Below the pieces are notes generated by a model. It was not told the DNA's origin and ran no database searches. It saw nothing but the letters and a program-made list of their open reading frames with translations. Below, one piece after another: positions 13,545 to 60,877 of a stretch of DNA of 64,000 nucleotides. Position numbers and translations under genes: made by a program. Each line of letters starts with the position of its first letter. The stretch's first letter is position 1. The DNA is from Methanolobus profundi (lineage in GTDB: Archaea > Halobacteriota > Methanosarcinia > Methanosarcinales > Methanosarcinaceae), in assembly GCF_900114835.1 (NCBI RefSeq), contig NZ_FOUJ01000001.1:744001-808000 (forward strand). The letters are read 5' to 3'.

Positions 13545-14309
13545 ATGCTGGATATAGATCCGACAGGTATCCTTGTCAGATACAATGTCAAACTCGAAGG
13601 AGAATTAACTCCTGACGAGATAGCAAGAGAACTTTTCCCTTCGGACATACTACTGCGAAATATCGTAGAAGCAGTCTTTGAAGGAGATGAGGATGAAGTT
13701 ATCATCGCTCTTAAAGAAGCAGTAAGTGCCGGGAAAGATCCTATAACCCTTATCGATGATGCCCTGATGAAAGGGATGAACATCGTCTCACAACTATATG
13801 ATGATGGTGTATTGTTCCTTCCGGATGTTATCATCGCATCACATGCAATGACCGATGGGATCGAATATTGTAAACAGATATCAGGAAAGACCCATGAATG
13901 TAAGGGAACCGTCGTATCCTATGTTGTGGAAGGTGATATCCATGATATTGGTAAGAAGATATTGACCGTCCTCCTGAAGTCCAATGGTTACGAGGTCATA
14001 GATCTTGGTAGCGATGTGCCTACTGATGAGGTGATCCAGGCAGTGCTCAAGTACAGGCCTATCATGCTGACAGGTACTTCTCTTATGACGACAACTATGT
14101 ATTCCTTTATGGAAGTAAACAACCGTCTCCTTGAGAATGGTATCAGGATCCCGTTCGTATGTGGTGGCGGTGCAGTGACCCAGGATTTCGTTATGAACTA
14201 TGAACTGGGTATATATTGTGAGGACGCTGCAGTAGTTCCAAAGATAGCGGATATGATAGTTCAAAATAGAGGCATTGACGAACTAAGAGAGAAGTTCCAC
14301 GTACATTAA
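13545..14309 (+). CDS. mtaC: Methanol-specific corrinoid protein MtaC paralog without adjacent mtaB
   Basis: 254 residues, collinear with the mtaC at 18372 and of equal length. Residues about 35-115 form the four-helix cap domain and 120-250 the Rossmann-like cobalamin domain. The cobalt-ligand motif is intact (GDIHDIG, His133), followed by VIDLGSDVP and the GTSLMTTTMY segment of methanol corrinoid proteins. It should carry the methyl group from an MtaB to MtaA. No mtaB follows; it may pair with the MtaB encoded 5 kb downstream or elsewhere. Codon use is less biased to C-ending codons than in the mtaCB copy, suggesting lower expression. A leader-like sequence copy lies just downstream. Confidence 0.9.
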   Translation: MLDIDPTGILVRYNVKLEGELTPDEIARELFPSDILLRNIVEAVFEGDEDEVIIALKEAVSAGKDPITLIDDALMKGMNIVSQLYDDGVLFLPDVIIASHAMTDGIEYCKQISGKTHECKGTVVSYVVEGDIHDIGKKILTVLLKSNGYEVIDLGSDVPTDEVIQAVLKYRPIMLTGTSLMTTTMYSFMEVNNRLLENGIRIPFVCGGGAVTQDFVMNYELGIYCEDAAVVPKIADMIVQNRGIDELREKFHVH

Positions 14310-18371: not shown

Positions 18372-19136
18372 ATGTTAATAGTAGACAAAGAAGGTATCCT
18401 TATCAGATACAACGTTAAGATGGAAAAATCAATGACCCCTGAAGAGGCGGCAGCAGAACTCTATCCAAAAGAGGAGTTATACAAGCCAATCGCAGAAGCG
18501 ATCTTTGAGGGTGAAGAAGATGATGTAATAGAAGGTCTCGAAGCAGCAATCGCAGCAGGCAAGGACCCGATCGCACTCATCGACGATGCACTTATGGTAG
18601 GTATGAAGGTAGTAACCGACCTTTACGACCAGGGTGTAATCTTCCTTCCAAACGTAATGATGTCCGCAGATGCAATGCTCGACGGTATCGAGTTCTGTAA
18701 GAGCCAGTCCACAGAGACCCCAGTCCAGAAGGGCAAGGTCGTCTGTATGGTCGCAGAAGGTGACGTACACGACATCGGTAAGTCAATCGTAGCAGCTCTC
18801 CTCAGGGCAAACGGCTATGAAGTTATCGACCTCGGAAGAGATGTACCATCAGCAGAAGCACTCGCAGCTGTAAAAGAGCACGAGCCACTCATGATGACCG
18901 GAACTGCACTCATGACAACAACCATGTACGCATTCAAGGAAGTCAACGACCTTCTCGTCGAGAGCGGAATCACAATGCCATTCGCATGTGGTGGCGGAGC
19001 AGTAAACCAGGACTTCGTATCAACCTACTCACTCGGTGTATACGGAGAAGAAGCAGCAGACGCACCAAAGATGGCTGACGCTATCCTTGCAGGCGCAGAC
19101 ATTGCAGCACTGAGAGCAAAATTCCACAACCACTAA
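18372..19136 (+). CDS. mtaC: Methanol-specific corrinoid protein
   Basis: 254 residues. It carries the methyl group on a corrinoid cofactor between MtaB and MtaA in methanol-dependent methanogenesis. The cobalamin motif is GDVHDIG with lower-ligand His133, followed by VIDLGRDVPSAE and GTALMTTTMYAFKEV. The cap domain is residues about 35-115. Codon use strongly favours C-ending codons and a narrow codon set, unlike most of the window, as expected for a very highly expressed gene. It is followed after 11 bases by mtaB. Confidence 0.97.
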   Translation: MLIVDKEGILIRYNVKMEKSMTPEEAAAELYPKEELYKPIAEAIFEGEEDDVIEGLEAAIAAGKDPIALIDDALMVGMKVVTDLYDQGVIFLPNVMMSADAMLDGIEFCKSQSTETPVQKGKVVCMVAEGDVHDIGKSIVAALLRANGYEVIDLGRDVPSAEALAAVKEHEPLMMTGTALMTTTMYAFKEVNDLLVESGITMPFACGGGAVNQDFVSTYSLGVYGEEAADAPKMADAILAGADIAALRAKFHNH

Positions 19137-19147
19137 GGTGATCACAA

Positions 19148-20527
19148 ATGGCAATTAAAAGATTTACATCAATGGCATACTCCGAAGCAGATGAGATGGT
19201 CTTCGGTAACGCAAAATTACCTGTGAAAGCAGGTCTTGACCTCGAGATCGGAGCAGGATACACAACTGCAGAAGTAAACTACGCACCAAGGCCAGAAGCT
19301 GGTGAGTCTATGGAGAAGCTCGTAAACGAGTACCAGAGAATCACAAAAGATATCATGGCTAGAATGGTCCAGGTAGGTTTCCCATCCGTAGTACTTGAGA
19401 CAGAACACGTACAGCAGATGACCAACAACCCATCATGGGGAGCAGCTGTAGCACACGCACAGAAGACCATCATGGAAGAGTACCATGAAGAATATGGAAT
19501 CAAATGTGCACTGAGACACACCCCTGGTGACATCAGAGAGCACAAAGAGTTCATGCAGCTCAGAGGCGACAAGATGGCAGTGGTCATGGAGTCCTTCGAA
19601 CAGATCGCAGAAAGCGGCGCAGACCTTCTCTCCATCGAATCAATGGGTGGAAAGGAAATCTTCGACTACGCAGTACTCAGGAACGATGTTCCAGGTATGC
19701 TCTACGCAATCGGCTGTCTTGGTACCATGGACATGGACTACCTCTGGCAGGAGATCTCAAGCGTAGCACAGAAGAAGGGCGTTGTCTCCGCTGGTGACAC
19801 CGACTGTGCACAGGCAAACACCGCAATGTTCATTGCAGGTGGTCTCCTCGACAAGAACCTTGCACACACACTTGCGATCCTCGCAAGAGCAATCTCCGCT
19901 CCAAGATCACTCGCAGCATACGAAGCTGGCGCAGTAGGTCCAGGAAAGGACTGTGGATACGAGAACATCATCGTAAAGGCAATCTCCGGTATGCCAATGT
20001 CCTTTGAAGGTAAGACTTCAACCTGTGCACACTCTGATGTAATGGGTAACCTTATCATGCAGTGCTGTGACCTTTGGTCAAACGAGTCTGTTGAATACCA
20101 CGGTGAATTTGGTGGTACAACAGTACAGTGCTGGTCAGAGTCCCTCAACTACGACTGTGCTCTTATGAACACAGCTCTTAAGTCAGGAAACGAGAAGATC
20201 CTCAGAGACCTCCTCATGGCTTCCGACAGATTCAGAGACCCACAGTCCTATGTACTTGCATACGACAACGCATACGCAGTCGGTGAAGCAATCGTTAAGG
20301 ACGGAGAAGACATCTTCCTCCGTGCAAAGAACGCTGCAATAGCATGCTGTGACACACTCAACAACGCAGACGGTCTTGAGATGACAAAGTTCGAACTCGG
20401 TGCACTCGCAAAGGCAACCGCAGAACTCGACGCAATCACCTCAGAATCCGAAACATTCATGAGCGAATGCATGGAGCGCTTCTCAAAGGAAGTCCCAGTA
20501 TTCAAGCCAGAGAACTACGCTCTCTAA
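19148..20527 (+). CDS. mtaB: Methanol:corrinoid methyltransferase
   Basis: 459 residues. It transfers the methyl group of methanol to the Co(I) corrinoid of MtaC. The zinc ligands established for the Methanosarcina barkeri enzyme (Glu164, Cys220, Cys269) are present at exactly those positions here (LSIE164, GDTDC220, GKDC269). A GGTGAT ribosome site lies in the 11-base gap after mtaC, and codon bias is the same as in mtaC, so the two form a highly expressed operon. A strong terminator follows immediately. Confidence 0.97.
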   Translation: MAIKRFTSMAYSEADEMVFGNAKLPVKAGLDLEIGAGYTTAEVNYAPRPEAGESMEKLVNEYQRITKDIMARMVQVGFPSVVLETEHVQQMTNNPSWGAAVAHAQKTIMEEYHEEYGIKCALRHTPGDIREHKEFMQLRGDKMAVVMESFEQIAESGADLLSIESMGGKEIFDYAVLRNDVPGMLYAIGCLGTMDMDYLWQEISSVAQKKGVVSAGDTDCAQANTAMFIAGGLLDKNLAHTLAILARAISAPRSLAAYEAGAVGPGKDCGYENIIVKAISGMPMSFEGKTSTCAHSDVMGNLIMQCCDLWSNESVEYHGEFGGTTVQCWSESLNYDCALMNTALKSGNEKILRDLLMASDRFRDPQSYVLAYDNAYAVGEAIVKDGEDIFLRAKNAAIACCDTLNNADGLEMTKFELGALAKATAELDAITSESETFMSECMERFSKEVPVFKPENYAL

Positions 20528-28222: not shown

Positions 28223-28516
28223 TTAGCAACAGCCATCATCACCACAGCAGCATGCATCACTGTCCATATCTTTGCCCTTGAGTGCTGCATTTATCATTGC
28301 CCAGGCACAGCCAACACCACTCTGTACCTCGATGGCCTCTACAGGACAATTTCCGGCACAAGCTCCGCATTCCATACACTTTTCAGGACTTGTGAGCTCT
28401 ACATGACCTTTTCCTTCAGTGAAGACTCCATGTGGGCATACCTGAGTACATATAAGGCAGTTGATGCATTTTTCAGGATGGAATTGAAGGGTATTCTCAT
28501 TGTATGAATTGAACAT
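28223..28516 (-). CDS. hgcB: Mercury methylation ferredoxin HgcB
   Basis: 97 residues from the ATG at 28516, which overlaps the hgcA stop (TGATG). It has two [4Fe-4S] binding sets, C17-x2-C20-x2-C23-x3-C27 and C47-x2-C50-x2-C53-x3-C57 (CMECGAC is typical of HgcB), the conserved lone Cys70 in GVGCAWAMI, and a C-terminal cysteine tail (CCC and final CC). HgcB is known to reduce the HgcA corrinoid and to bind Hg(II) through these cysteines. A longer frame upstream is an artefact of reading into hgcA. Confidence 0.95.
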   Translation of the reverse strand: MFNSYNENTLQFHPEKCINCLICTQVCPHGVFTEGKGHVELTSPEKCMECGACAGNCPVEAIEVQSGVGCAWAMINAALKGKDMDSDACCCGDDGCC

Positions 28517-29592
28517 CAGATAATCTCCATTAAACGGCTTGCTCCAAGGACAATAAGGCAGATTATTCCGGTACCTGCTTTTAGTGCTATGTACGGTACA
28601 TATTTGAATATCTCTTTCTTGACCCCGGTCCTGGATGTATAGGTAGTACAACCTGTGAAGTTCAGTGCAAGGAATCCTGTCACTGCAGGAATTAGAAGGA
28701 ACATTGCCATCAATGTAAGTATCTTCTCCCAGAGTACTATGGAGGGGTCAGCTGCAAGTACAATTCCGAAAGGTATCGTTACCAGCCAGCCAAGGATGAT
28801 CCCTTTGATACTGAGATCATGGGCAGGCAGGAAAGGAAGCAGGACCGGGAAAAGTACCGTTCCTGCAACTGCGGCGATGACTGCGATGAGCGCTGCAAGA
28901 GGACCTGATAACATGTAGAGCAAGATCGCAGCGATGATCGTTGGTTTAACCACGTGGACAAATTCTATTGGTGTCAGTACCAGCCTGTCCTTGAATGTGA
29001 ACTTCACCTTTCTCATTTCAGGTGTGGCAGTATGGGTTTTGAGATACTCAGGAAGGTCACTGGCACGTACAGGTCCGTATTCGACTTTAAATCCTGACCT
29101 TTTACTGATCTCATGTGCAGATACTCCCGGTGCACCGAGCTGTGGCAGAATGAGTTTACGATGGTTCACGATCTTAGAAAGTCCTGACCATTTGATACGA
29201 TATACTATCTCATCAGTTCCAAATGTCCCTTTTCCGGCAGCACACCAGACGTTTATACCTTTTGTATCTATAACAAGGATGTAACAGTCGATACCTGCAA
29301 GTGAACTGCGAAGTGCATCAAAACTGAGGGTGTAATTAGCTGATACAAAGACAGGAGAATCTGCATCAGGCGTTCCTAATTTATAGATGCCAGGTTGGAC
29401 TATGTGTTCTGAACGTCTAAATCCCCATCGTGCAAGGAAATGGTCGAACCTGTCATTGAAGGTGAGATCACTTGTTGTTTCCTGAATTTCCGGTGCAGGG
29501 CTGTTTTTATCCAGTCCTATCATCTGGATGAACTGACCTGTGTTCACTTCAGTGTCAGATGAACAGCATCCTCCGTTGTTGTTAGTATCCAT
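28516..29592 (-). CDS. hgcA: Mercury methyltransferase corrinoid protein HgcA
   Basis: 358 residues. The cap-helix motif NVWCAAGK lies at residues 114-121, with Cys117 the expected unusual lower cobalt ligand. The corrinoid domain covers about 45-200, and four or five transmembrane helices fill about 205-355. HgcA transfers a methyl group to Hg(II), making neurotoxic methylmercury, at the cytoplasmic membrane. The N-terminus has an extra Cys-Cys (GGCCSS, residues 7-12). AAAGGA precedes the start. hgcB follows in a one-base overlap. Methanolobus and Methanomethylovorans are among the methanogens known to have this pair. Confidence 0.97.
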   Translation of the reverse strand: MDTNNNGGCCSSDTEVNTGQFIQMIGLDKNSPAPEIQETTSDLTFNDRFDHFLARWGFRRSEHIVQPGIYKLGTPDADSPVFVSANYTLSFDALRSSLAGIDCYILVIDTKGINVWCAAGKGTFGTDEIVYRIKWSGLSKIVNHRKLILPQLGAPGVSAHEISKRSGFKVEYGPVRASDLPEYLKTHTATPEMRKVKFTFKDRLVLTPIEFVHVVKPTIIAAILLYMLSGPLAALIAVIAAVAGTVLFPVLLPFLPAHDLSIKGIILGWLVTIPFGIVLAADPSIVLWEKILTLMAMFLLIPAVTGFLALNFTGCTTYTSRTGVKKEIFKYVPYIALKAGTGIICLIVLGASRLMEII

Positions 29593-29741
29593 GTTCCATT
29601 TCCTTTTTTAGTGAAAGCATTTCAAATAGATCTGAACAAATATAGTATGAAAAGAAGTTGCACATATATCTATCTGATAGATGAGAGCAATAGTATTTTT
29701 CTATATAGTTTCGAGAAGGAGTTTGTTTTTACCACGTGCCA

Positions 29742-29889: not shown

Positions 29890-31074
29890 ATGCCAGAAAA
29901 GAAAAAGCCCCTTACAATAGCTCTTTCGTTGTTACTCTTAATGTCCATAGTTCCAGGAGTAATGACAGACGTCTGGGATGTCATCTCTCCTGCAAAATCA
30001 CTTGACGAGTTTGAACCTTTTAAGACATCACTCGTAACTGGAAGTGGTGTGGAAAATGTAGATATTTCGCCTGATGGCAAATTTGTTGTAAGCAGCACAC
30101 TTGGAATGGTTAACTTATGGGATGCAGCGGATCTCGACTTACTCTATGGTTATCATGTTATGAATGATGAAAGCGGTGCTACTGTGAAACAACGTGAGCC
30201 ATATTACAACCTTGTAGATATTGAATTTTCTAAACCTGGAAACTATTATTTAGTAGGCTCCAATAGTGATCATCCACATTATGGAGGAATGGAAGCATCA
30301 CATCTGACACTCTACAACATGACACATAGCATAGGTGTTGCCAGCAGAACTTTCAGAACCCACCAGATAAACGATACTCTCATAGAGGACACTGCCATTT
30401 CCCCGGACGAAACTACCTATGCAGCCTGCACGGAAATGACAACAAACCCTGAGAGTTGCACAATTACATTATGGGATATTGAAACTGGCGAAGTTGCGAA
30501 TTCAATTACAAGTGACAATTACAAAGCAACCTCGATCACATTCACACCTGATGGAAAATATCTGGTTGCAAGTTTTGACAACAACATTAATCCTGACAGA
30601 ATAGTTGTTTTTGCTCTGGAAAATGGAGATGTTGTCAGGACGATGGAAGAAAGAGCGGTTACTGACCTCCATTTCTCTGATGATGGAAATATCCTTGCAG
30701 CAGGCAGCATCTATCGTAGTGAGGTAATAGTCTGGGATGGGAATTCTTACGAGGAAATGTATCGTTTGAGAGGATTGGAACTTTCGCCTGACAGCACTGC
30801 ACTTTCGAGAGATGGAAAGTATATCATGGCTATGGACTATTCCAGACTGATCGTATGGGATACCGAATCGAAAAGAAAGATCGTGAGTAGCAGACATCGA
30901 AATATTGATTTTGTTGACTCATTCTCATCAGGCACGTTCTCAGATGATGGAAAATATCTTGTAATGGCATTGGTAGTAAAAAGGGGTTCAGAGTATACTA
31001 GACAGCCTGATTATAACTCAGGAATGGTCTTTGTTTATGATTTTGAAGAAATACTGGAATCCTATTATGAGTGA
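29890..31074 (+). CDS. Secreted WD40-like beta-propeller protein, copy 1
   Basis: 394 residues. A signal peptide (MPEKKKPLTIALSLLLLM) is followed by about seven propeller blades, seen from repeated units such as ISPDGKFVVSS, ITLWDIETGE, FTPDGKYLVASF and FSDDGNILAAGS. Such extracytoplasmic propellers usually act as binding scaffolds. No membrane anchor is seen at the C-terminus. No ribosome site is present before the ATG, so the message may be leaderless. It is followed at once by a near-copy. Confidence 0.8.
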   Translation: MPEKKKPLTIALSLLLLMSIVPGVMTDVWDVISPAKSLDEFEPFKTSLVTGSGVENVDISPDGKFVVSSTLGMVNLWDAADLDLLYGYHVMNDESGATVKQREPYYNLVDIEFSKPGNYYLVGSNSDHPHYGGMEASHLTLYNMTHSIGVASRTFRTHQINDTLIEDTAISPDETTYAACTEMTTNPESCTITLWDIETGEVANSITSDNYKATSITFTPDGKYLVASFDNNINPDRIVVFALENGDVVRTMEERAVTDLHFSDDGNILAAGSIYRSEVIVWDGNSYEEMYRLRGLELSPDSTALSRDGKYIMAMDYSRLIVWDTESKRKIVSSRHRNIDFVDSFSSGTFSDDGKYLVMALVVKRGSEYTRQPDYNSGMVFVYDFEEILESYYE

Positions 31075-31082
31075 GTTTTAAC

Positions 31083-32267
31083 ATGCCAGAAAAGAAAAAG
31101 CCCCTTACAATAGCTCTTTCGTTGTTACTCTTAATGTCAATAGTTCCAGGAGTAATGACAGATGTCTGGGATCTTGTCTCCCCAGCAAAGTCACTTGACG
31201 AGTTTGAGCCCTATAAAACATCCTATGTGGAAGGAAGTGACGTGGAAAATATAGATATCTCCCCAGATGGGAAATTTGTTGTAAGCAGCACACTGGGCAC
31301 AGTCAACTTCTGGAATATAGTGAGACGCGATGAACGATTTGGATACCATAAACAGAATGATGGGACCAGCGCTACGGTAGAAGATCATGAACCATATTAC
31401 AACCTTGTAGACATTGAGTTTTCTACACCAGGAAACTATTATTTGGTAGGTTCCAACAGTGATTATCCGTATTATAAAGGAAGAACATCATCACATTTGA
31501 CACTCTACTATATGACTCACAGCAAAGGTGTAGCCAGTGATTATTTAAGAGGACATGAGATAAACGATACTCTCATAGAGGATACTGCCATTTCCCCGGA
31601 CGAAACTACCTATGCTGCCTGTACGGAAATGACAGCAAACCCCGAGAGTTGCACAATTACATTATGGGATATTGAAACTGGCAAAGTCGTGAATTCAATT
31701 ACAAGTGACAATTACAAAGCAACCTCGATCACATTCACACCTGATGGAAAATATCTGGTTGCAAGCTTTGATAACAGTATCAATCCTGACAGAATACTTG
31801 TCTTTGATCTAAAAAATGGAGATATTGTCAGGACGATAAAGGAAAGGGCGGTTGCTGACCTCCAGTTCTCAGATGATGGGGAGATTCTTGCAGCAGGTAG
31901 TCTTTATCGTAGTGAAGTAATTGTCTGGGATGGGAATTCTTACGAGGAATTGTATCGCTTGAAGGGATTGGAGCTTTCACCTGATAGTACTGCACTTTCA
32001 CGGGATGGAAAGTATATTATGGCTATGGACTATTCCAGACTGATCGTATGGGATATCGGGTCAAAAAGAAAAATCGTGAGTAGCAGGCATCTAAATATTG
32101 ATTTTGTTGACTCATTCTCATCATGTACGTTCTCCGATGATGGAAAATATCTTGTAATAGCATTGGTAGTAAAGAGAGGTTCTGAGTATACCGTACAACC
32201 TGATTATAACTCTGGAATGGTCTTTGTTTATGATTTTGAGGAGATATTGGAATCCTATTATGAGTGA
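31083..32267 (+). CDS. Secreted WD40-like beta-propeller protein, copy 2
   Basis: 394 residues from the ATG at 31083, which matches the start of copy 1; a GTG at 31071 is also in frame. The first 90 bases differ from copy 1 at only about two positions, and long later stretches are also near-identical, while the part coding for residues about 70-170 is more diverged. This points to a tandem duplication with partial gene conversion. The copy starts 9 bases after the first copy ends, so they are co-transcribed. Function as for copy 1. Confidence 0.8.
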   Translation: MPEKKKPLTIALSLLLLMSIVPGVMTDVWDLVSPAKSLDEFEPYKTSYVEGSDVENIDISPDGKFVVSSTLGTVNFWNIVRRDERFGYHKQNDGTSATVEDHEPYYNLVDIEFSTPGNYYLVGSNSDYPYYKGRTSSHLTLYYMTHSKGVASDYLRGHEINDTLIEDTAISPDETTYAACTEMTANPESCTITLWDIETGKVVNSITSDNYKATSITFTPDGKYLVASFDNSINPDRILVFDLKNGDIVRTIKERAVADLQFSDDGEILAAGSLYRSEVIVWDGNSYEELYRLKGLELSPDSTALSRDGKYIMAMDYSRLIVWDIGSKRKIVSSRHLNIDFVDSFSSCTFSDDGKYLVIALVVKRGSEYTVQPDYNSGMVFVYDFEEILESYYE

Positions 32268-32892: not shown

Positions 32893-33906
32893 CTACGCCA
32901 ACAGATCGCTCATATCGATCTCCTTCCCAGTTCTCAACTGATCTCTGAGCTGTGTGATCTTCCTGTCTATCTTCTCAAGGCTTTCCAGATGCTTTTTCTC
33001 GTCATCTGTGGTCTTCATGAGCTTTGAGATACCACCGTTCTTTATGACGATCCGCTGGTCTGCTGAGAGAGCGAGTAGGGGGTCGTGGGTGCTGATAAGG
33101 ACTATCTTGTTATTACTTACCAGAAGTTCCAGTGATCTTACCTTGTCAACTCCGGCATTCTCTATCTCATCTATCAGGACCACTGATGCAGGGCTTAGGA
33201 GTGCTGTGTCAGCGATCATCAGGGCTCTTGACTGTCCTCCGGAAAGTTGTGTGACAGGGGTTTCCCTGCTGAAAGACTCACCTGCAAGGACGTTCGCTGT
33301 ATCGTATATCTTCTGGACGATATGGGATATCTCATCAACCATACGGCTCTCTGCATGAAGTGTGAGGAAATCCTCTACACTAAGGTCCATGACAAAGTTC
33401 ATGTTCTGGGAGAGTTGAGCTATAAAACGGCCTTCGGTAGAGAAACGTTCCTCATCGTCCGGAGCACGACCATTGATCAATATTCTGCGCTTGGTTGGTG
33501 TGTCCTCCTGGGCCAGAGATTCAATATCGGCCAGAAGGCGTGATTTTCCTGAACCGGTGGGACCAACGATCGCTGTCACTTCACCTTTCTTCAGTTCAAC
33601 TGAAAACTCTTCTTTCTCACCATTCTTATTGTGTCCTGGGAGCACGGTCAGAGATCCAACTGTGAGAACATTACCCTCCTGAAGAACTTTTACCTGCTCA
33701 ATGAACAAAAAAAATCCGTCAATAAAGGTCTGATAGTCACTTCCTCTTTCTTCAAAATACTCTTCAGTAAGTATTGAACCCAGATTTTCCAGTTTTGTCC
33801 TCCCGAACTGCGAAGGGTCGATCGCAAATGAAGATAAATAATCCTCTATCCACGGCATCATCTCCATGAGCTCATCTATAGTTCTATGAAGCATATCTGT
33901 CCGCAT
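32893..33906 (-). CDS. Lone ABC-type ATPase of a three-gene cytosolic unit
   Basis: 337 residues. The nucleotide-binding domain has Walker A (GPTGSGKS, residues 115-122), a Q-loop glutamine (QLSQNMNF), the signature LSGGQ, Walker B (VVLIDEIEN) and the switch histidine (STHD). Ahead of it lie about 100 residues, the first 60 helical (TIDELMEMMPWIEDYL), similar in character to DUF1858. No membrane protein is encoded nearby, so a normal ABC transporter is unlikely. It follows the GTPase gene with no gap and ends with a charged coiled tail (ESLEKIDRKITQLRDQL). It may power a maturation or metal-handling step (inference). Confidence 0.8.
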   Translation of the reverse strand: MRTDMLHRTIDELMEMMPWIEDYLSSFAIDPSQFGRTKLENLGSILTEEYFEERGSDYQTFIDGFFLFIEQVKVLQEGNVLTVGSLTVLPGHNKNGEKEEFSVELKKGEVTAIVGPTGSGKSRLLADIESLAQEDTPTKRRILINGRAPDDEERFSTEGRFIAQLSQNMNFVMDLSVEDFLTLHAESRMVDEISHIVQKIYDTANVLAGESFSRETPVTQLSGGQSRALMIADTALLSPASVVLIDEIENAGVDKVRSLELLVSNNKIVLISTHDPLLALSADQRIVIKNGGISKLMKTTDDEKKHLESLEKIDRKITQLRDQLRTGKEIDMSDLLA

Positions 33907-34602
33907 TCACTCATCTCCTCTGAAATTCACCAGTTTTGAAACGCCGATCTGCCTGTCATCTCCGATCATCCTTTCCCCAAGACAATATGAACACAGGGCT
34001 CCGGGCATGGTAAACCTGAGTACGGCTCCCTGGAGTGTCTCAACTGAAGTTGTCTTTTCCACCAGCTTTGCAAGGTAGAATGCTCCCTGTCCGGTAACCC
34101 CATTGAGCTGGACTATCGTCCCGCCGGGGTTGACCTGTCTGACCCTGTATGCAAATACCTCACGCTCTGCCTGGGACACGATATCTCCCTTGGTGATAAC
34201 AACGATATCCGCAAGTTTCAGCATAGGTCCGATCTTCTTTGGTGTATTGACACCACTCAGGTTATCAATGACACAGATCGCAAGGACATCCTTGATGTGT
34301 GGGGAGCAACGATTGCAGAGCCCGGCACTTTCAGTTATCAGGAAATCGAACTTCCGCTCTTCCGCCCATCTGAGGGCTTCTTCTATATTGCTTACAAAGA
34401 AATGGTCAGGACAGAGACCTCCGGATAGGCCGGTCCTGACCGGTATGTTATGAGCTGCATAGAGTTCCTCATCCTGGGCTGAGAGGCAGTCGAACTTTAC
34501 CACACCTATCGCAAAGCCCTTTTGTCTGAGCTCTTCGATGGTTTTGATAATAATACTGGTTTTTCCTGATGACGGAGGACCTGCTACCGTAACAAGTCTC
34601 AA
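33907..34602 (-). CDS. HypB/UreG-like P-loop GTPase with CxxC motifs
   Basis: 231 residues. Walker A is GPPSSGKT (residues 8-15), the switch II region is LITESAGLC, and a G4-like motif is TKGD (137-140). This is the SIMIBI class architecture of metal-insertion GTPases such as HypB and UreG. Cysteines lie in C64PDH, C96NRC99 and C204SYC207, giving likely metal or Fe-S sites that ordinary HypB lacks at these places. The start overlaps the stop of the binding-protein gene (ATGA) and its stop abuts the ABC ATPase start. It may load or couple metal transfer with GTP hydrolysis (inference). Confidence 0.8.
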   Translation of the reverse strand: MRLVTVAGPPSSGKTSIIIKTIEELRQKGFAIGVVKFDCLSAQDEELYAAHNIPVRTGLSGGLCPDHFFVSNIEEALRWAEERKFDFLITESAGLCNRCSPHIKDVLAICVIDNLSGVNTPKKIGPMLKLADIVVITKGDIVSQAEREVFAYRVRQVNPGGTIVQLNGVTGQGAFYLAKLVEKTTSVETLQGAVLRFTMPGALCSYCLGERMIGDDRQIGVSKLVNFRGDE

Positions 34603-35834
34603 ACGACACCACCGGTTATCATGAACTGCTTATTGAACACCTCTGCGATCTCTTTTTTGAGCGCTCCTATATCAGTGTTCAGCAGGAAATCCCAGCCAAG
34701 CCAGTAGAGTGAGTCCACATCTTCAAGCTTGTTCTTGACCTCGGGGTGTGTTGTCGGGAAGAATGCCTTAGCTGATATCTCACCGAACTTCTTTCCGCAG
34801 AGGAAATCAGTTATTTCCTTCACTCTCTCGGTTGCTTCCTTTTTCACCAGCATTTGGACAGGGCTTACAATTGCACCTTCTGTGGGTACAGTGATAGTTA
34901 CCCTTGACCTATCCTTGATCTTCATGGCAAAGAAATGAGGCATGATATACATTGGAGGGACATCGTCCTTCTTGCTGTCGATCATTTTTACCATCTCGGA
35001 GGGATGTGATCCGGCATATATGGATGAAGCAAGTTTCTTCATTCCTTCCATACCATACATCTGGTAGAATGGAAGCAGTACGCCATTACAGAAGAAACCG
35101 TTCTGTCCTCTCATTACTACCTTGTTCCTGAATTCCTCTTCTAATATAGCTCCCCAGGAAGTCGGTGTGGCTTTACCTTCCATTAGCTCATCTATTGTGA
35201 CAAGGACGAGAAGATTTCCGGAGAGCATAGTGAACTGTCCACGTGGGTCGGCGAAATCTATGGCTTCAAAATCAGAATTCATAGGTGATGCACCAATGTC
35301 TGTGAAATATTCATGACTGAGGAAGTTCTCTTGGAATGGTTTGTGGTAGAAACTGTTTATGTCAGAACTGATGATTATGTCCGGCAGTTCTTCTTCTGAT
35401 GTGACCGAATCCATGTAGGCATAGTAGGATATCTCGTGGTTGACGTTACCTTCTACGAGTGAATGAAGCACATTACCTGTACGCTCTGTGTATTCGCTTG
35501 AGAATTCATTCAGTGCGCGGTTAAAGGGCATTTTCATACCACAGGGTAAGAGTGCCAGAAGTGTCAGCTCTTTTTGTCTTTCCGGTGATCCTGCAAGGGT
35601 GAATTCTCCTTTTGCTTCATTGTCCAGAATAGCCTGATCCAAAAGCTCAATAAAAGATCCCTTATTGACCGATACCATTGATAGAGCAGTTTTTAACTTT
35701 AGCAAAGGGCCAAGTTGTTCAAGAACATCCTTTCTCTCAAACTTTTCCAGTCCATGCTGCTTGAATATCTTGATCAAATAGGGATGTTCGCTTAAGATCT
35801 GGTATATGCTCATTGTCTCTTCTATTTTTTTCAT
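34599..35834 (-). CDS. Cytosolic substrate-binding-protein-like protein with N-terminal DUF1858-like domain
   Basis: 411 residues. The first 75 residues (MSIYQILSEHPYLIKIFKQHG) resemble the DUF1858/ScdA-N helical domain. The remainder resembles type 2 periplasmic binding proteins of ABC importers for iron and similar ligands (LPDIIISSDINSFYH, FADPRGQFTMLSGNLL, TVPTEGAIVSPVQMLV). There is no signal peptide or lipobox, so it should be cytosolic, unlike real ABC binding proteins. A GAGGGA ribosome site precedes the ATG. It is first in the three-gene unit, translationally coupled to the GTPase. Confidence 0.75.
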   Translation of the reverse strand: MKKIEETMSIYQILSEHPYLIKIFKQHGLEKFERKDVLEQLGPLLKLKTALSMVSVNKGSFIELLDQAILDNEAKGEFTLAGSPERQKELTLLALLPCGMKMPFNRALNEFSSEYTERTGNVLHSLVEGNVNHEISYYAYMDSVTSEEELPDIIISSDINSFYHKPFQENFLSHEYFTDIGASPMNSDFEAIDFADPRGQFTMLSGNLLVLVTIDELMEGKATPTSWGAILEEEFRNKVVMRGQNGFFCNGVLLPFYQMYGMEGMKKLASSIYAGSHPSEMVKMIDSKKDDVPPMYIMPHFFAMKIKDRSRVTITVPTEGAIVSPVQMLVKKEATERVKEITDFLCGKKFGEISAKAFFPTTHPEVKNKLEDVDSLYWLGWDFLLNTDIGALKKEIAEVFNKQFMITGGVV

Positions 35835-52347: not shown

Positions 52348-52615
52348 AATTGGTACCTCACTTCCAGAAGTTACTTGCGTACATATAAAACCTTTGATAA
52401 ATTTTGATTTTAATTGTTATATTTTATATTATTCTACAAAGGAATAATATGTTGACATATAATTAACAGTGACAACAAAAAAAGAATACTTTTAAGATCA
52501 TGATAATATCCTGGGTGTTTCTCACCAGAAAGAAACCTTATTATTAGTGTAACATGCATAGTTCTGTGGTCACATTCCTTTAGTGACCTTTTCTATGCTT
52601 CAGGAGGATACTACC

Positions 52616-53638
52616 TTGGCTGCCATGACATTGAAAGAGCGTTTTATCTATTCACTTGAAAAGAAAGAGGTTGACAGGGTTCCTGTATGCTCGGTGACCC
52701 AGACAGGTATTGTAGAACTCATGGAACTTACGGGTGCTAAATGGCCTGATGCACATTATGATCCAGAGAAAATGGCTACACTGGCGATCGCAGGACATGA
52801 GGTCTTGGGACTTGAAGCTGTAAGGTATCCTTTTTGTACAACAGTTATAGCTGAGACCCTTGGTTGTAGTTTTGATAAGGGTTCTATTGACACACAACCC
52901 TATCAGCTCGATCATCCATGTAAGAACAAGGATGATGTTGCAGGTATCTCAGTTCCGGGTGATCTTCTTGGGTCAAGAAGGATCAGTGCGATGCTTGAAG
53001 CCACTGATATTATAAAGAGCAGGGTATCGGATGATGTTCCTGTGATAGCAGGGATGATCGGACCTGCTGCTATTGCGTTCTATTTGTGTGGTGCCAGGAA
53101 TTATCTTAAATGGTGTATAACTGATCCGGATATCCTTGAAGAACTTATAGTTCTTGGAACCAGGGTCTGTGTGGAATATGCCAATGCCCTTTTTGAAAGA
53201 GGTGTGGATGCTGTTGTAATTATAGATTCAGAGGCAGGTCCTGACCTTTTACCACCACCACTTTTCGGATCCCTTGTTCTTCCTCACTATAAAGAGCTCA
53301 CCAGAGAAATGAAAGGTCACAGTATCATCCACATATGCGGAGATGCAACCGATATCCTTGAAATGGTCGCTGTATCTGGATTTGACGGTCTGAGTGTTGA
53401 GGAGAAGGTGGATATTGCCTATGCAAGTCAGGTTGTTGGGGACAGGCTTTGCCTGATCGGAAATGTCTCGCCTGCGGCAACATTGCTTGGGAAAAGTCCG
53501 GACCAGATAAAGAAAGAGGCAAAACAATGTATTGAGGACGGTGTTGGTATACTGGCACCAGGGTGTGGAATAGCACCTCATACTCCGGTGGAGAATATTA
53601 GAGCTCTTGTGGCCGCAAGGGATGAGTTCTATGAATAA
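52616..53638 (+). CDS. mtaA: Methylcobamide:CoM methyltransferase MtaA
   Basis: 340 residues from a TTG at 52616. AGGAGG (52602-52607) lies 8 bases before this TTG but 17 before the ATG at 52625 that opens MTLKERFIYSLEK, so the TTG is preferred. It transfers the methyl group from methyl-MtaC to coenzyme M in methanol methanogenesis. It is a uroporphyrinogen-decarboxylase-like TIM barrel; zinc ligands are seen in HICGD and in the final GCGIAP. It lies 32 kb from mtaCB and just before the chemoreceptor genes. No terminator is obvious after it. Confidence 0.93.
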   Translation: MAAMTLKERFIYSLEKKEVDRVPVCSVTQTGIVELMELTGAKWPDAHYDPEKMATLAIAGHEVLGLEAVRYPFCTTVIAETLGCSFDKGSIDTQPYQLDHPCKNKDDVAGISVPGDLLGSRRISAMLEATDIIKSRVSDDVPVIAGMIGPAAIAFYLCGARNYLKWCITDPDILEELIVLGTRVCVEYANALFERGVDAVVIIDSEAGPDLLPPPLFGSLVLPHYKELTREMKGHSIIHICGDATDILEMVAVSGFDGLSVEEKVDIAYASQVVGDRLCLIGNVSPAATLLGKSPDQIKKEAKQCIEDGVGILAPGCGIAPHTPVENIRALVAARDEFYE

Positions 53639-54071: not shown

Positions 54072-56126
54072 TTGAAACTGAATTTAAAAAACATAACAAT
54101 AAGTCGTAAGATCATTGTCTTCGCATTGATCCTTACAATTTTGCCAGTAACAGCCGTTGGTCTGTTTGCCTATGAGCAAACTTCTACTGCTATAAGGGAA
54201 CAACTCCATGAAAGGCTTGATGAACAGGTCTCTATGGAAGAGCAATACGTTGCAGCTGTATTCTCGGTAGCAAAGGAAACACTTCAAGCTAGTATTGGTG
54301 TTGCCAGTCTTCAACTGAATGAATATGGAGAAGCTTCAATATCAGATGGGGATCTGGTATTTGGTGATACGGTCATTAATAATAACTATGGTCTTGTTGA
54401 CACCATTAAGGAAGAGACCGGGTCAGATGTCACTGTATTCCAGGTATCCGGTAGTTCAGCAATTCGTGTTGCTACTACTTTGGTTGATGACAATGGAAAT
54501 CGTATTGTAGGCACAGCAGTCTCTCAGGAAGTTTACCAGACTGTCGTACAGAGAGGACAGAACCATGAAGGTCAAGCAGATGTGTTTGGTGAAACCTACA
54601 TAGGTACCTATAAACCTATCAGGGATGCAACAGGAAAGACCATAGGTATTCTTTTTGCTGGTCTTCCAGAAGAACACTATCGTCAGATAATCAAGGAACA
54701 GATGTCAACTATTGTCGTTGGTGAAACCGGTTACATGTATGTGATGGACACCAGTGGTGATGTCATTATCCATCCTACTGTTGAAGGAGACAACCTTCTG
54801 GAAAATGATTTTGCAAAGACAATGGTAGCAGAAAAGGAAGGAAGACTCGTTTACGACTGGCAGGGTCGTGAAAAGGCTATCAGTTATGCATACTATCCGG
54901 ATAACGAATGGATCATTGCATCAGGTACATACATCGATGAGTTCGAGGCTCCTGTAAGGGCTATCAGGAACGGTCTTGTAATTGCAGTACTTATATTCGT
55001 GATACTTGGTTCAGGTGCAGCATATCTTATCAGCAGATCGATATCCAAGGGTGTAGAGAACATTGTTTCAGACTTCAAGAAGATCTCAACCGATGCAATG
55101 GAAGGTAAGATCAATTCAAGAGCTGAAACTGATGTAGATATCGACTTTACAGATATTCCACTAGGTCTTAATGAGATCCTGGAAACTCTTACAAGCGTTA
55201 TCAATGTAGTAACTAAGAGCTCTAATGGTGTCGCTTCAACTGCAGAACAGATGTCTGCATCCATTGAGCAGATGACCGCAGCTTCCACACAGGTCTCAAC
55301 AACCGTGAACGAGATCGCAAGAGGTTCACAGGAACAATCTTCAAGGGCAGAGGATGTAGCAAGGACCATGAATGATATGACCATCGGTGTGCAGGATATT
55401 GCAACCAATGCTCAGCAGGCAGCAGAAGCAGCTAACTCTTCAAGGGACTTCATTACAGATGTCGGCAACCAGTCCAGAGATATGCTTGTTCAGATGGACG
55501 CTATCCAGGCTGCTACCAATGGCTCTGCAAATGTTATCAAGGAACTTGAAGGTAAGTCTAACCAGATCGGTGAGATCGTACAGCTTATCACCAACATTGC
55601 TGACCAGACCAACCTGCTTGCACTGAACGCTGCGATCGAGGCAGCAAGGGCAGGAGAACACGGTCGTGGTTTCGCTGTTGTAGCTGATGAAGTAAGGAAG
55701 CTTGCTGAGAACTCAGGAACTGCAGCATCCCAGATATCAGAACTGATCGCAGAGATCCAGGAAGGTACCCATGCAGCAGTAACTTCAATGGAATCCGGTA
55801 CAAAGACAGTTACAGAAGGTGTAGATGCACTTACTCATACTGTTGAAGCTGTGCAAAGGATCGTTGAAGAGAGTAACAAGGTTGCTCTTATGGCTGAGAA
55901 TATTGCAGCAGCAGCTGAGGAACAGTCCGCTTCGATCGAAGAGGTCACTGCAACGGTCGATGAGGTCGCTTCTATATCAGAAGAGGCAGCAGCCGGTACA
56001 CAGGAAACCTCTGCAGCTGTAGAGCAGCAGAGTGCATCCATGCAAGAGCTTGCAAAGAGTTCACAGGAACTTGCTCAGATGGCTTCTGAGATGCAGGAAT
56101 TCGTTGCAAAGTACCAGACAGAATAA
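54072..56126 (+). CDS. Membrane chemoreceptor, Cache-HAMP-MCP, copy 1
   Basis: 684 residues, start codon TTG. One membrane helix follows the cytoplasmic N-terminus ([21 protein letters not shown]), then an extracellular Cache_3-Cache_2-type sensor (about 40-290), a second membrane helix, a HAMP domain, and a methyl-accepting domain with the conserved tip [20 protein letters not shown]. It senses a small ligand outside and controls CheA and the archaellum. It is the first of three tandem paralogs, next to mtaA, so a methylated substrate is a possible ligand (inference). Confidence 0.93.
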
Positions 56127-56132
56127 GTATGA

Positions 56133-56152
56133 AGAAGGGAAGTGTCCCTTCT
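56133..56152 (+). terminator. Terminator of chemoreceptor 1
   Basis: AGAAGGGA and TCCCTTCT form an 8-base stem with a 4-base loop, followed by a T-rich tail. Confidence 0.75.
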
Positions 56153-56327
56153 CTTTTCTTTTTTTAAGTTATTATCTTCTTTTTATCATCTTTGTCTATT
56201 ATTTAATCTATTTTTTTACTAAAAAGATATTTGTATATTTCTAAATTTTAATATTCAGTGCGTCTACGCATGTTGAAAAATTGCAGAGTGTTATCACTAC
56301 ATTTTTATATTTGAATTGTTGTATATA

Positions 56328-56417
56328 CAATTGTTCAACTAATACTCAAAATTGAACCATAATCTAAGATGGATCATATCTCAATTATTATTTACATTTT
56401 TTAGATGGGTGATACAC
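56328..56417 (+). promoter_or_regulatory. Leader element of chemoreceptor 2
   Basis: CAATTGTTCAACT (56328-56340) matches the motif of copies 1 and 3 at 10 of 13 positions, 90 bases before the TTG. A TATA-like TTTTTATATTTG lies about 25 bases upstream. Confidence 0.4.
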
Positions 56418-58484
56418 TTGAAAATAACTACATTAGATCTTAAGAATATAACTATTAATAAAAAGATCATTGCTCTTGCTTTGATACTTAGTATTTTACC
56501 TGTAAGTGCTGTGGGACTGTTCGCTTATGAACAGACCTCTTCTGCTATAGAAGAACAGGTATACGAAAAACTTGATGAGCAGGTATGGATGGAAGAACAG
56601 TACATTGATGCTGTCTTTTCAGTAGGTCAGGAAAGTCTGAAAGCCAATCTAGGTGTGGCCCATAATAGTTTCTATTCATTGGGAACTCCAATGATATCCA
56701 ATGGTAACCTGTTATTTGGTGACGACCATGTTGTCAATGGTAATTATGACCTTGTTGATGAACTTAAAGCAGAGACCGGTGGGGATCTCACTATATTCCA
56801 GGTAAAGGATGGTTCTGCAGTACGTGTTTCAACTACTATCAAGAACAGTGCCGGAAGCCGTTTAGTAGGTACAAGTCTTACTGATGCTGTTTATCAGAGC
56901 GTTGTCCGGGAAGGTCAGACATATACCGGAAGATCTGATGTTCTTGGTGAATGGTACATAGGTATCTATGAACCTATAAAGGATACATCAGGAAAGATAA
57001 TTGGTATTCTTTTTGTCGGTCTGCCTGAAGCACACTACACTCAGACGATCAGAGAACAGATATTGGACATAACCGTTGGTGAGACTGGTTATATGTATGT
57101 GATGGACACCAGTGGTAATCTCATAATCCACCCGACCAGTGAAGGCGACAATGTCTATCAAAATGATTTTGTAAAAGAAATGGTCGCAAATAAGGAAGGA
57201 AGGATCGATTATGTCTGGGAAGGCCGGGAAAAGGTAATGAGCTATACTTATTATCCTGATAAGGACTGGATCGTCGCTACAGGAACTTATTTCGATGAGT
57301 TCGAGGCTCCTGTAAGAGCTATCAGGAATGGAATTATAGCTGCTGTGATCATATGTGTTCTCCTGGGTTCCGGAGCTGGTCTTTTCATAAGCCGTTCCAT
57401 CTCCAAAGGTGTGGAAGGGATCGTTTCTGATTTCAAGAAGATATCAGATGATGCGATCGATGGTAAGGTAAATTCCAGAGCTGAAACAGATGTGGATATT
57501 GATTTTGTTGATATTCCAAAAGGTCTTAATGATATTCTGGAAACTCTTACAGGTGTCATAAATGTAGTAACAAAGAGCGCTAACAGTGTTGCTTCAACTG
57601 CAGAAGAGATGTCTGCATCCGTTGAGCAGATGACTGCGGCTTCCACACAGGTCTCAACAACTGTGAATGAGATCGCACAGGGATCCCAGGCTCAGTCCTC
57701 AAGGGCAGAGGATGTAGCAAGAACCATGAACGATATGACCATTGGTGTGCAGGATATTGCAAGCAATGCTCAGCAGGCAGCAGAAGCAGCAAATGCAGCA
57801 AAAGAGTTCATCTCAGATGTTGGTGATCAGTCCAGGGACATGCTTGTTCAGATGGATGCTATCCAGGCTGCTACCAATGGTTCTGCAAATGTTATCAAGG
57901 AACTTGAAGGTAAGTCTAACCAGATCGGTGAGATCGTACAGCTCATAACCAACATTGCTGACCAGACAAACCTGCTTGCTCTGAACGCTGCGATCGAGGC
58001 AGCAAGGGCAGGAGAACACGGTCGTGGTTTCGCGGTTGTAGCTGATGAGGTAAGAAAGCTTGCTGAAGACTCAGGAACTGCAGCTTCCCAGATATCAGGA
58101 CTTATCGGTGAGATACAGGATGGTACCCATGCAGCTGTGACCTCTATGGAATCCGGAACTAAGACCGTGTCTGAAGGTGTAGATGCACTTACTCACACTG
58201 TTGAAGCTGTCCAGAGGATCGTTGAGGAGAGTAACAGGGTTGCTCTTATGGCAGAGAATATTGCAGCAGCAGCTGAGGAACAGTCCGCTTCAATAGAAGA
58301 GGTCACTGCGACTGTTGATGAGGTCGCTTCTATCTCACAGGAAGCAGCAGCTGGTACACAGGAGACCTCTGCAGCAGTGGAACAGCAGAACGCATCTATG
58401 CACGAACTTGCAACGAGTTCACAGGAACTTGCTCAGATGGCTTCTGAAATGCAGGAATTTGTTGCAAAATACGTAACAGAATAA
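56418..58484 (+). CDS. Membrane chemoreceptor, Cache-HAMP-MCP, copy 2
   Basis: 688 residues from the TTG at 56418, which aligns with the starts of copies 1 and 3 and has GGTGAT just upstream; an ATG at 56352 would add 22 atypical residues. Architecture is as in copy 1. The sensor domain is the most diverged part, while the signalling domain is nearly identical to copy 1 at DNA level over several hundred bases, suggesting gene conversion and different ligands with one signalling output. Confidence 0.92.
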
Positions 58485-58490
58485 GACCGG

Positions 58491-58509
58491 AGAAGGGATC
58501 ATCCCTTCT
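58491..58509 (+). terminator. Terminator of chemoreceptor 2
   Basis: AGAAGGGA and TCCCTTCT with a 3-base loop, the same stem as after copy 1, followed by TTTC. Confidence 0.75.
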
Positions 58510-58712
58510 TTTCATTCTTATTCTTGCTCTTTTTTTATCATTGCTGTTTTTCGTTATTTTCATACTCCCAATTTTATTTGGAGAATGTCTATTATCTTAT
58601 TTTTATTCCATAATGTTTCTAATGGTGTCGTCTATTCTTCCAATATCTGACTTCCTAATTATATTGATTCTCTTTATATTTTTATACTTTGTAACCCTAT
58701 GAAAATATAATG

Positions 58713-58807
58713 CAAATGTGTAACTTATACAAAATGTGGTCATTCTGAATTCAGGACATTGATCATTGTGTTATTATTTGTATATGATCATTGGATGTGG
58801 TGGATTG
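58713..58807 (+). promoter_or_regulatory. Leader element of chemoreceptor 3
   Basis: CAAATGTGTAACT (58713-58725) is identical to the motif of copy 1, and the TTG start again lies exactly 95 bases after the motif begins. A TATA-like TTTTTATACTTT lies about 30 bases before it. Confidence 0.55.
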
Positions 58808-60877
58808 AAATGGAAGGGCACTACTTTTAACTGGAAAAAAATAACAATTAGTCGGAAGATCATTGTATTTGCTTTGATACTAACAATTTTACCTATGGCA
58901 TCTGTGGGTCTTTTTGCCTACGAGCAAACCTCTACTGCCATCAGGGAACAGTTACATGAGAGACTTGATGAACAGGTCTACATGGAAGAGCAGTATGTTG
59001 GAGCAATATTCACGATCGCTGAGGATAACCTTGCATCAAGTATGGGTGTGGCATCGATCGAAATGCTCAGTCATGGTTCTCCATCGATATTGAACGGGGA
59101 GCTTACTTATGGCGATGACTATACGATAAATAATAATTTTGCGCTTGTTGACAGAGTAAAAGAAGAGACCGGTACAGATGTCACGATCTTCCAGGTCATG
59201 GACGATTCAGCAGTCCGTATATCTACAACGATAGTAGGAAACACAGGTAGTCGTGTTGTGGGAACGGCTGTTTCTGAAGATATCTATCAGAAAGTGGTCC
59301 GTGGAGGACAGACCTTTATTGGTGAGGCAAATGTACTCGGAGAGGAATACCTGAGCATCTATGAGCCTATTAAGGCCAATACAGGGGAAACTATCGGTAT
59401 ACTGTTCGTGGGTATGCCCGTGGAACATTACCGTCTGATCATCAAAGAGCAGATGTCACAGATAGTGTTCGGTGAGACCGGTTACATGTATGTGATGGAT
59501 TCTAATGGTGACGTTATCATTCATCCTACTGTTGAGGGAGATAACCTTCTTTCAAATGATTTTGCAAAGACCATGGTCGCAGAAAAGGAAGGAAGACTTG
59601 TCTATGAATGGCAGGGACGTGATAAGGCTATCAGTTATGCCTATTATGAAGAAATGGACTGGATCATTGCATCCGGTACATATATCGAAGAGTTCGAAGC
59701 TCCTGTAAAAGCTATCAGGAACGGACTTATAGCAGCAGTATTAGTATTTCTGGTACTTGGATCTGCAGCAGCACTCCTTATAAGCAGATCAATTTCCGGT
59801 GATGTGAACAGTATCGTTGCAGATTTCAAGAAGATATCGGACGATGCTCTGGAAGGAAGGATAAATACAAGGGCTGAGACGGACGTAGCAGTTGATTTCC
59901 TGGACATACCACGTGGTCTGAACAGCATTTTAGATACTCTTACCAATGTGATAAATGTGGTGAGCAGAAGTGCCAATAATGTAGCTTCGACCGCAGAAGA
60001 GATGTCTGCTTCTATTGAGGAAATAACTGCAGCATCTTCACAGGTTGCAACCACTGTGGGTGATATTGCTAAAGGTTCTATGGACCAGTCCACAAGGACC
60101 GATGATATTGCCAGGACGATGAACGATATGACCATTGGTGTACAGGATATTGCCAGCAATGCCCAGGAGGCTTCTGAGGCTGCTAATGCTGCAAAGGAAT
60201 TCATTGCAAGTGTTGGTGACCAATCCAGTGATCTTCTTTTGCAGATGGATGCCATACAGAGAGCTACGGATAGTTCAGCTACGGCCATCAAGGAGCTTGA
60301 GGAGAAATCCAACAGGATCGGTGAGATGGTGCAGCTTATCACCAATATCGCAGACCAGACGAACCTTCTTGCACTAAATGCAGCCATTGAAGCTGCACGT
60401 GCTGGTGAACACGGACGTGGTTTTGCAGTTGTTGCTGATGAGGTGAGGAAACTGGCAGAGAACTCAGGAACTGCAGCTTCCCAGATATCAGAGCTGCTGA
60501 CGCTGATAATGGAAGAGACACATGGCGCGGTAAGTTCCATGGATGAAGGTACCAGGACCGTAACTTCAGGTGTCACTGCCCTTACAAGCACTGTTGAGGC
60601 TGTTAAAAAGATAGTCGAGGAGAGTAACAAGGTCGCTATAATGGCAGGAAATATCGCAGCAGCAGCCGAGGAACAATCTGCTTCCATTGAAGAGGTGACG
60701 GCAACCATAGATGAGGTGGCCTCGATATCACAGGAGGCAGCAGCCGGTACACAGGAAACATCGGCAGCCATAGAGGAGCAGAGTGCATCCATGCAGGATA
60801 TTGCCAAGAGCTCTGAGGAACTGGCACAGATGGCCTCTGAGATGCAGGAGATCGTTTCAAAGTATATTACAGATTGA
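58808..60877 (+). CDS. Membrane chemoreceptor, Cache-HAMP-MCP, copy 3
   Basis: 689 residues from the TTG at 58808, by homology with copies 1 and 2. An upstream in-frame start at 58766 is not supported. The architecture is as in the other copies, with membrane helix, Cache sensor, second helix, HAMP and signalling domain. It is more diverged from copies 1 and 2 in the signalling domain ([17 protein letters not shown]) than they are from each other. Ligand unknown. Confidence 0.92.

Follow-up and report, generated by a model that had tools for sequence, protein, structure and literature searches.

An intact hgcAB operon of Methanolobus profundi predicted to encode a mercury-methylating complex

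The hgcAB gene pair and its products

The window is a stretch of 64,000 nucleotides (G000:C7:744001-808000) from the genome of Methanolobus profundi, which measures 3.1 Mb and is 99.96% complete. On its minus strand lies the gene pair hgcAB. The gene hgcA (28516..29592) starts with ATG and encodes 358 amino acids with a corrinoid-binding domain and a five-helix membrane domain. The gene hgcB (28223..28516), also starting with ATG, encodes a two-cluster ferredoxin of 97 amino acids. The two genes are adjacent, co-directional, and unfused, which is the layout of the hgcAB system, and they occupy two separate frames. Their junction reads TGATG, and therefore the hgcA stop codon and the hgcB start codon share base 28516. 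The start of hgcA was placed at the first ATG in agreement with the starts of its relatives; an internal ATG picked by ribosome-site score was dropped because the relatives' starts match the first one. The ATG frame of hgcB sits within a longer TTG frame beginning at 28651.

HgcA matches the NCBIfam model HgcA_corrinoid (NF040863) with 451.8 bits (cut-off 275, E-value 1.2e-135), and HgcB matches HgcB_ferredoxin (NF040864) with 115.8 bits (cut-off 99, E-value 6e-34). Judged by these scores, both equivalog matches are far beyond chance. The initial annotation had described, without naming the strand, a complete pair overlapping by one base, which the junction and the two scores bear out. PF03599 also matches HgcA (52.6 bits). 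The cap-helix motif NVWCAAGK defines the HgcA family and was found at residues 114-121 (29230..29253, minus strand), where Cys117, the cobalt-ligand candidate by the role described for this cysteine (PMC7305189; PMC11588087), is invariant across 44 aligned HgcA rows. In the translation of HgcB, the cluster motifs read C17xxC20xxC23xxxC27P and C47xxC50xxC53xxxC57P, with further cysteines at Cys70, 89-91 (CCC), and 96-97 (CC). HgcB has the two CxxCxxCxxxC motifs, the downstream lone cysteine, and at least one C-terminal cysteine of its family. Among 92 HgcBs readable beside 106 different HgcAs and picked for at least one motif, 91 have both motifs, all 92 have the lone cysteine, and 84 have CC in the tail. 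The statements that the initial annotation made from the sequence, namely NVWCAAGK with Cys117 in HgcA and two CxxCxxCxxxC sets, the lone Cys70, and a Cys-Cys end in HgcB, all hold.

The AlphaFold2 model of HgcA, built with 44 rows, has a mean pLDDT of 83 and a pTM of 0.73, with residues 1-17 below a pLDDT of 50. It contains a mixed alpha/beta domain followed by the helices 200-229, 231-254, 260-280, 287-310, and 321-357. The membrane helices annotated earlier correspond to these five long helices, the first of which begins at residue 200, and the predicted order of a corrinoid-binding fold and five membrane helices is that of HgcA. In a Foldseek search of the PDB library, the best match was 9a0b_A, the HgcA of a published integrative HgcAB model (E-value 7e-20, 39% identity); the whole-length match is moderate, with a TM-score of 0.50-0.53 and an rmsd of 7.5 over 330 columns. 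The next matches were corrinoid iron-sulfur proteins, and a PDB search by sequence alone matched HgcA to the large subunits of such proteins.

The pair resembles HgcAB of Pseudodesulfovibrio mercurii ND132 as described in passages of two publications, HgcA by its corrinoid domain with a conserved cysteine and five membrane helices, and HgcB by its two-cluster ferredoxin with a lone cysteine and a terminal CC (PMC7305189; PMC11588087). In ND132, Cys93 of HgcA and Cys73, Cys94, and Cys95 of HgcB are reported to matter, and the catalytic residues named in these sources have counterparts in HgcA and HgcB here (PMC7305189; PMC11588087). Cys117 would correspond to Cys93 of ND132; the comparison covered the deposited model 9a0b_A, matched at 39% identity. 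The archaeal HgcA differs in having an N-terminal tail with Cys9-Cys10.

Upstream region and neighbouring genes

A TATA-like block, GATAGATATATGTGCAACTTC, lies upstream of hgcA (29654..29674, minus strand). Its alignment spans 12 genomes, of which 11 belong to the genus, with that of the window among them, and one (G021) to the family, and it occurs in the host genome as a single copy at up to three mismatches. Between the block and the hgcA start codon, about 25-45 bases before the latter, there is a dyad of the form TTCAAAT-N2-ATTTGAA. The dyad of the window, TTCAGATCTATTTGAA (29621..29636, minus strand), has one mismatch. A perfect 6-bp dyad is found in 10 of the 12 aligned sequences; L133 is without the left arm, and L143 has a variant dyad displaced by one base. 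Due to this mismatch, the missing arm, and the shift, we make no claim of covariation. Position and conservation suggest that the block is a putative promoter and the dyad a putative operator.

An AbrB/PrlF-like regulator before hgcA has been proposed in archaea (PMC10349881, in part). At least 24 of 92 loci have such a gene directly before hgcA, a lower bound as some loci end early and 13 more show a frame seemingly antisense to the gene. The G043 locus is among these 13, yet a genome search finds the AbrB-like gene in G043. Within the genus the gene is present in 3 of 27 genomes (G040, G043, and G044); at an E-value of 1e-8 it was not detected in the genome of the window or in 23 of the 26 other genus genomes. 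We rejected regulation by an AbrB-like gene in the host, since the gene was not detected in its genome at this threshold. The clade of the window differs from the arrangement described for archaea (passages of PMC10349881) in carrying the conserved block and dyad upstream instead.

Methanolobus bombayensis DSM 7082 (L003) and M. vulcani PL 12/M (L004) have HgcAs of 78% and 77% identity and HgcBs of 88% and 87% identity to those of the window. Both share the one-base overlap of hgcA and hgcB, and both have the same neighbours, with genes for a TRAM protein, eIF1A, and a DEAD-box helicase on one side and an ABC-GTPase-solute-binding module on the other. The window differs in that hgcA adjoins a tandem of two WD40-repeat genes (29890-31074 and 31071-32267, plus strand), which have no match in L003 or L004 at 1e-8. 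These genes overlap by four bases and look very similar by eye; the WD40 scan refers to the first. The module (32893-35834, minus strand) is a single run of genes for an ABC ATPase, a HypB/CobW-like GTPase, and a solute-binding protein with an N-terminal DUF1858. Searches for the solute-binding protein alone were used to judge its link with hgcAB. Twelve genus genomes have this protein, 11 of them together with hgcA. The protein also occurs in eight genomes of a second genus in this family, g13, which includes records titled Methanosarcina; of these eight, only G075 has an HgcA above the cut-off. A specific link of the module to hgcAB was rejected, as seven of these eight genomes have the protein and no HgcA above the cut-off.

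Among the genes at 13545-14309, 18372-19136, 19148-20527, and 52583-53638 are the methanol-pathway genes mtaC, mtaB, and mtaA, with scores above the NCBIfam cut-offs; the gene at 18372 is similar to the mtaC one. MtaC, MtaB, and MtaA in the window fit a methylotroph. Three similar long tandem frames at 54072-60877 (plus strand) look by eye like methyl-accepting chemotaxis receptors.

Phylogeny, selection, and distribution

Placement among methanogen HgcAs, which the initial annotation had named as a check, groups HgcA with its own genus, M. bombayensis, and M. vulcani, in an 8-row clade with a support of 100 and a 12-row clade with a support of 99, in a quick tree of 105 rows whose support is by SH-aLRT only. 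In comparisons with five relatives, hgcA has a dN/dS of 0.10-0.14 and hgcB one of 0.04-0.09; dS is 0.87-1.37, near saturation, and therefore the ratios are rough, though clearly under one. These values indicate that hgcA and hgcB are both under purifying selection.

An HgcA match was found in 51 of 392 genomes of an even phylum sample at an E-value of 1e-60, and 25 of 111 genomes of the family match above the HgcA cut-off, including G050 with its broken gene. In the genus, HgcA is above its cut-off in 16 of 27 genomes and hgcB in 15, G050 falling below. Both genes are intact in 15 of the 27, both are broken in G050, and neither is found in 11, one of which (G047) is only 70% complete. Counted in this way, the pair is patchy in the genus. 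It is also dispensable there, being broken in G050 and missing in G059.

In nine genus genomes including that of the window, hgcAB adjoins the TRAM gene, followed by the genes for eIF1A and the DEAD-box helicase. In six others (G040, G042, G043, G044, G052, and G064) it lies at other places. In G050, frame-broken hgcA and hgcB (L150:3561-4940, G050:C47) lie between a nicotinate phosphoribosyltransferase gene and the TRAM gene; hgcA can be traced only by passing through three frames, and hgcB needs at least two. Sequencing error may be the source of this break. G059 (L182, G059:C1:58000-73000) is without hgcA and has no hgcAB beside its TRAM gene. A tree of the helicase, which covers 24 genomes of the genus and leaves out G046, G047, and G052, places G059 as sister to five genomes that carry hgcAB at the TRAM gene (6-row clade, SH-aLRT 100). 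These six belong to a 10-row clade (92) in which every genome except G059 has hgcAB at that place. G059 has probably lost the pair, loss being the simpler reading of this one gene tree. In nine TRAM-adjoining stretches of genomes without the pair at that place, no remnants of hgcA or hgcB were found at an E-value of 1.

The HgcA of G042 groups with M. psychrotolerans and Methanosarcina (support 93) and not with the clade of the window, and the helicase tree places G042 with G050 and G058. Given these two placements, relocation or replacement of the pair is possible as well. The broken pair of G050 and the missing pair of G059, both near intact relatives, offer natural comparisons for questions about the purpose of hgcAB.

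Predicted function

The pair hgcAB is known to be required for mercury methylation. Of nine methanogens assayed, eight methylate mercury, M. tindarius and seven other carriers of hgcAB, and Methanococcoides methylutens, which carries a fused pair, made no methylmercury above controls (PMC5893877, in part). By this example, the presence of hgcAB is not always sufficient for methylation.

We consider it very probable that the window carries an intact, vertically inherited hgcAB operon encoding a mercury-methylating complex. Its identity, its architecture (partly by the predicted model), the selection on it, and its phylogenetic place are results of the comparisons above, and the chemistry of the complex would follow the published ND132 work by analogy. 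The cytoplasmic domain of HgcA would hold the corrinoid with Cys117 as the cobalt ligand, anchored by five membrane helices. Electrons from HgcB would pass through its two [4Fe-4S] clusters and reset the cobalt. Cys70 and the terminal cysteines of HgcB may hand in Hg(II) and take CH3Hg+ out. In ND132, S-adenosylmethionine has been shown to be the methyl donor (PMC11588087, in part). Within its clade, the Methanolobus operon was most likely inherited vertically.

The initial annotation had predicted that the organism can methylate mercury. As a prediction this is supported, since the identity of the genes, their completeness, the selection on them, and their phylogenetic place are all consistent with a working hgcAB. 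The pair has been described in Methanolobus, and cultured M. tindarius methylates mercury (PMC5893877, in part); therefore the reading of the host as a probable methylmercury producer stands. As hgcAB marks organisms capable of making methylmercury, an intact copy under selection makes this methylotrophic methanogen a probable source of it. A search with MerB gave no match in the host genome, and the control query was equally without a match anywhere.

The selected role of the pair could be another corrinoid methyl transfer, with mercury methylation as a side reaction; this is compatible with the operon encoding a mercury-methylating complex. Such a role would suit the patchiness of hgcAB, which is broken or missing in some lineages among its bearers, and the general view that hgcAB is not a detoxification mechanism (PMC7305189, in part). 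The cysteine-rich tails on HgcA and HgcB, however, fit a soft-metal substrate. No other substrate of HgcAB is known to us, which also counts against this role. We regard it as possible, though unlikely.

A silent or decaying locus, with genes intact but no longer expressed or working, is very improbable. The broken pair of G050 beside the same TRAM gene and the absence of the pair from G059 are in its favour, but the low dN/dS over a long divergence, the lack of stops in the five compared relatives, and the conservation of the upstream block in the clade speak against it. A non-methylating paralogue, either the corrinoid subunit of CO dehydrogenase/acetyl-CoA synthase or a member of the HgcAB-like fusion family, is refuted as far as sequence can do so and has a negligible chance of being correct: PF03599 is common to HgcA and CdhD and the HgcAB_like model also matches HgcA, but the latter match (218.3 bits) is below its cut-off of 285, the acetyl-CoA subunit model gives only 87.8 bits against a cut-off of 306, a separate weaker match in the same genome (C7:440432, 34% identity) is far below the HgcA cut-off, and hgcA and hgcB are two separate frames and not a fusion.

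The hgcAB operon is thus a known system in a genus known to carry it, correctly identified and with good support, and its proteins are ordinary family members. It bears out a trait already established for the genus and adds no new type of system.

Cysteine-rich N-terminal tail of HgcA

HgcA of the window starts with MDTNNNGGCCSS, and its N-terminal tail, taken as residues 1-49, contains the vicinal cysteines Cys9-Cys10 (29563..29568, minus strand). We defined the tail as the residues before the DHFLAR motif in 106 different HgcA rows, of which L066 was unscorable at a contig end, and assigned groups by record title or else by the phylum of the window. Rows with at least two tail cysteines number 72 of 77 for methanogens, 4 of 8 for ANME/Methanoperedens, 0 of 5 for Methanomassiliicoccales, and 4 of 15 for records with bacterial titles. 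In the 77 methanogen rows, the cysteine content is 7.8% in the tails and 0.8% in the rest of the same proteins. CC or CxC occurs in 71 of the 77 methanogen tails. Among 325 further long frames from these loci, 16 have CC or CxC and 57 have at least two cysteines within their first 45 residues; this background is rough, as the start codon is not certain in every row and background frames begin at the first possible codon.

The cysteine-rich N-terminus of most methanogen HgcAs may be a flexible arm that, in addition to the HgcB tail, would capture mercury and hand Hg(II) to the corrinoid, an idea that is speculative and on balance improbable. If it were true, the archaeal complex would handle mercury with two thiol arms and many bacterial ones with one. 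Within the genus, the tail has no cysteine in L087 (G061) and one each in L097 (G057), L007, and the broken L107; the HgcBs of L087, L097, and L007 retain their motifs, which counts against a need for the tail cysteines. The HgcA N-tail and the HgcB C-tail correlate with a Spearman coefficient of 0.65 over 91 pairs and 0.43 within 64 methanogen rows. With relatedness considered, this does not establish co-evolution of the two tails, since the independent changes on the tree are too few and no sign test among those listed reached 0.05. No description of the HgcA tail was found in searches of the open-access literature, including passages of PMC7305189 and PMC11588087; as this covers open-access texts and passages, it does not prove the tail to be unreported. 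As a lead, the cysteine-rich tail of HgcA is minor but testable. Several cysteines are also present in the N-terminus of the AbrB-like regulator (24 loci, for example L007:5691-5981).
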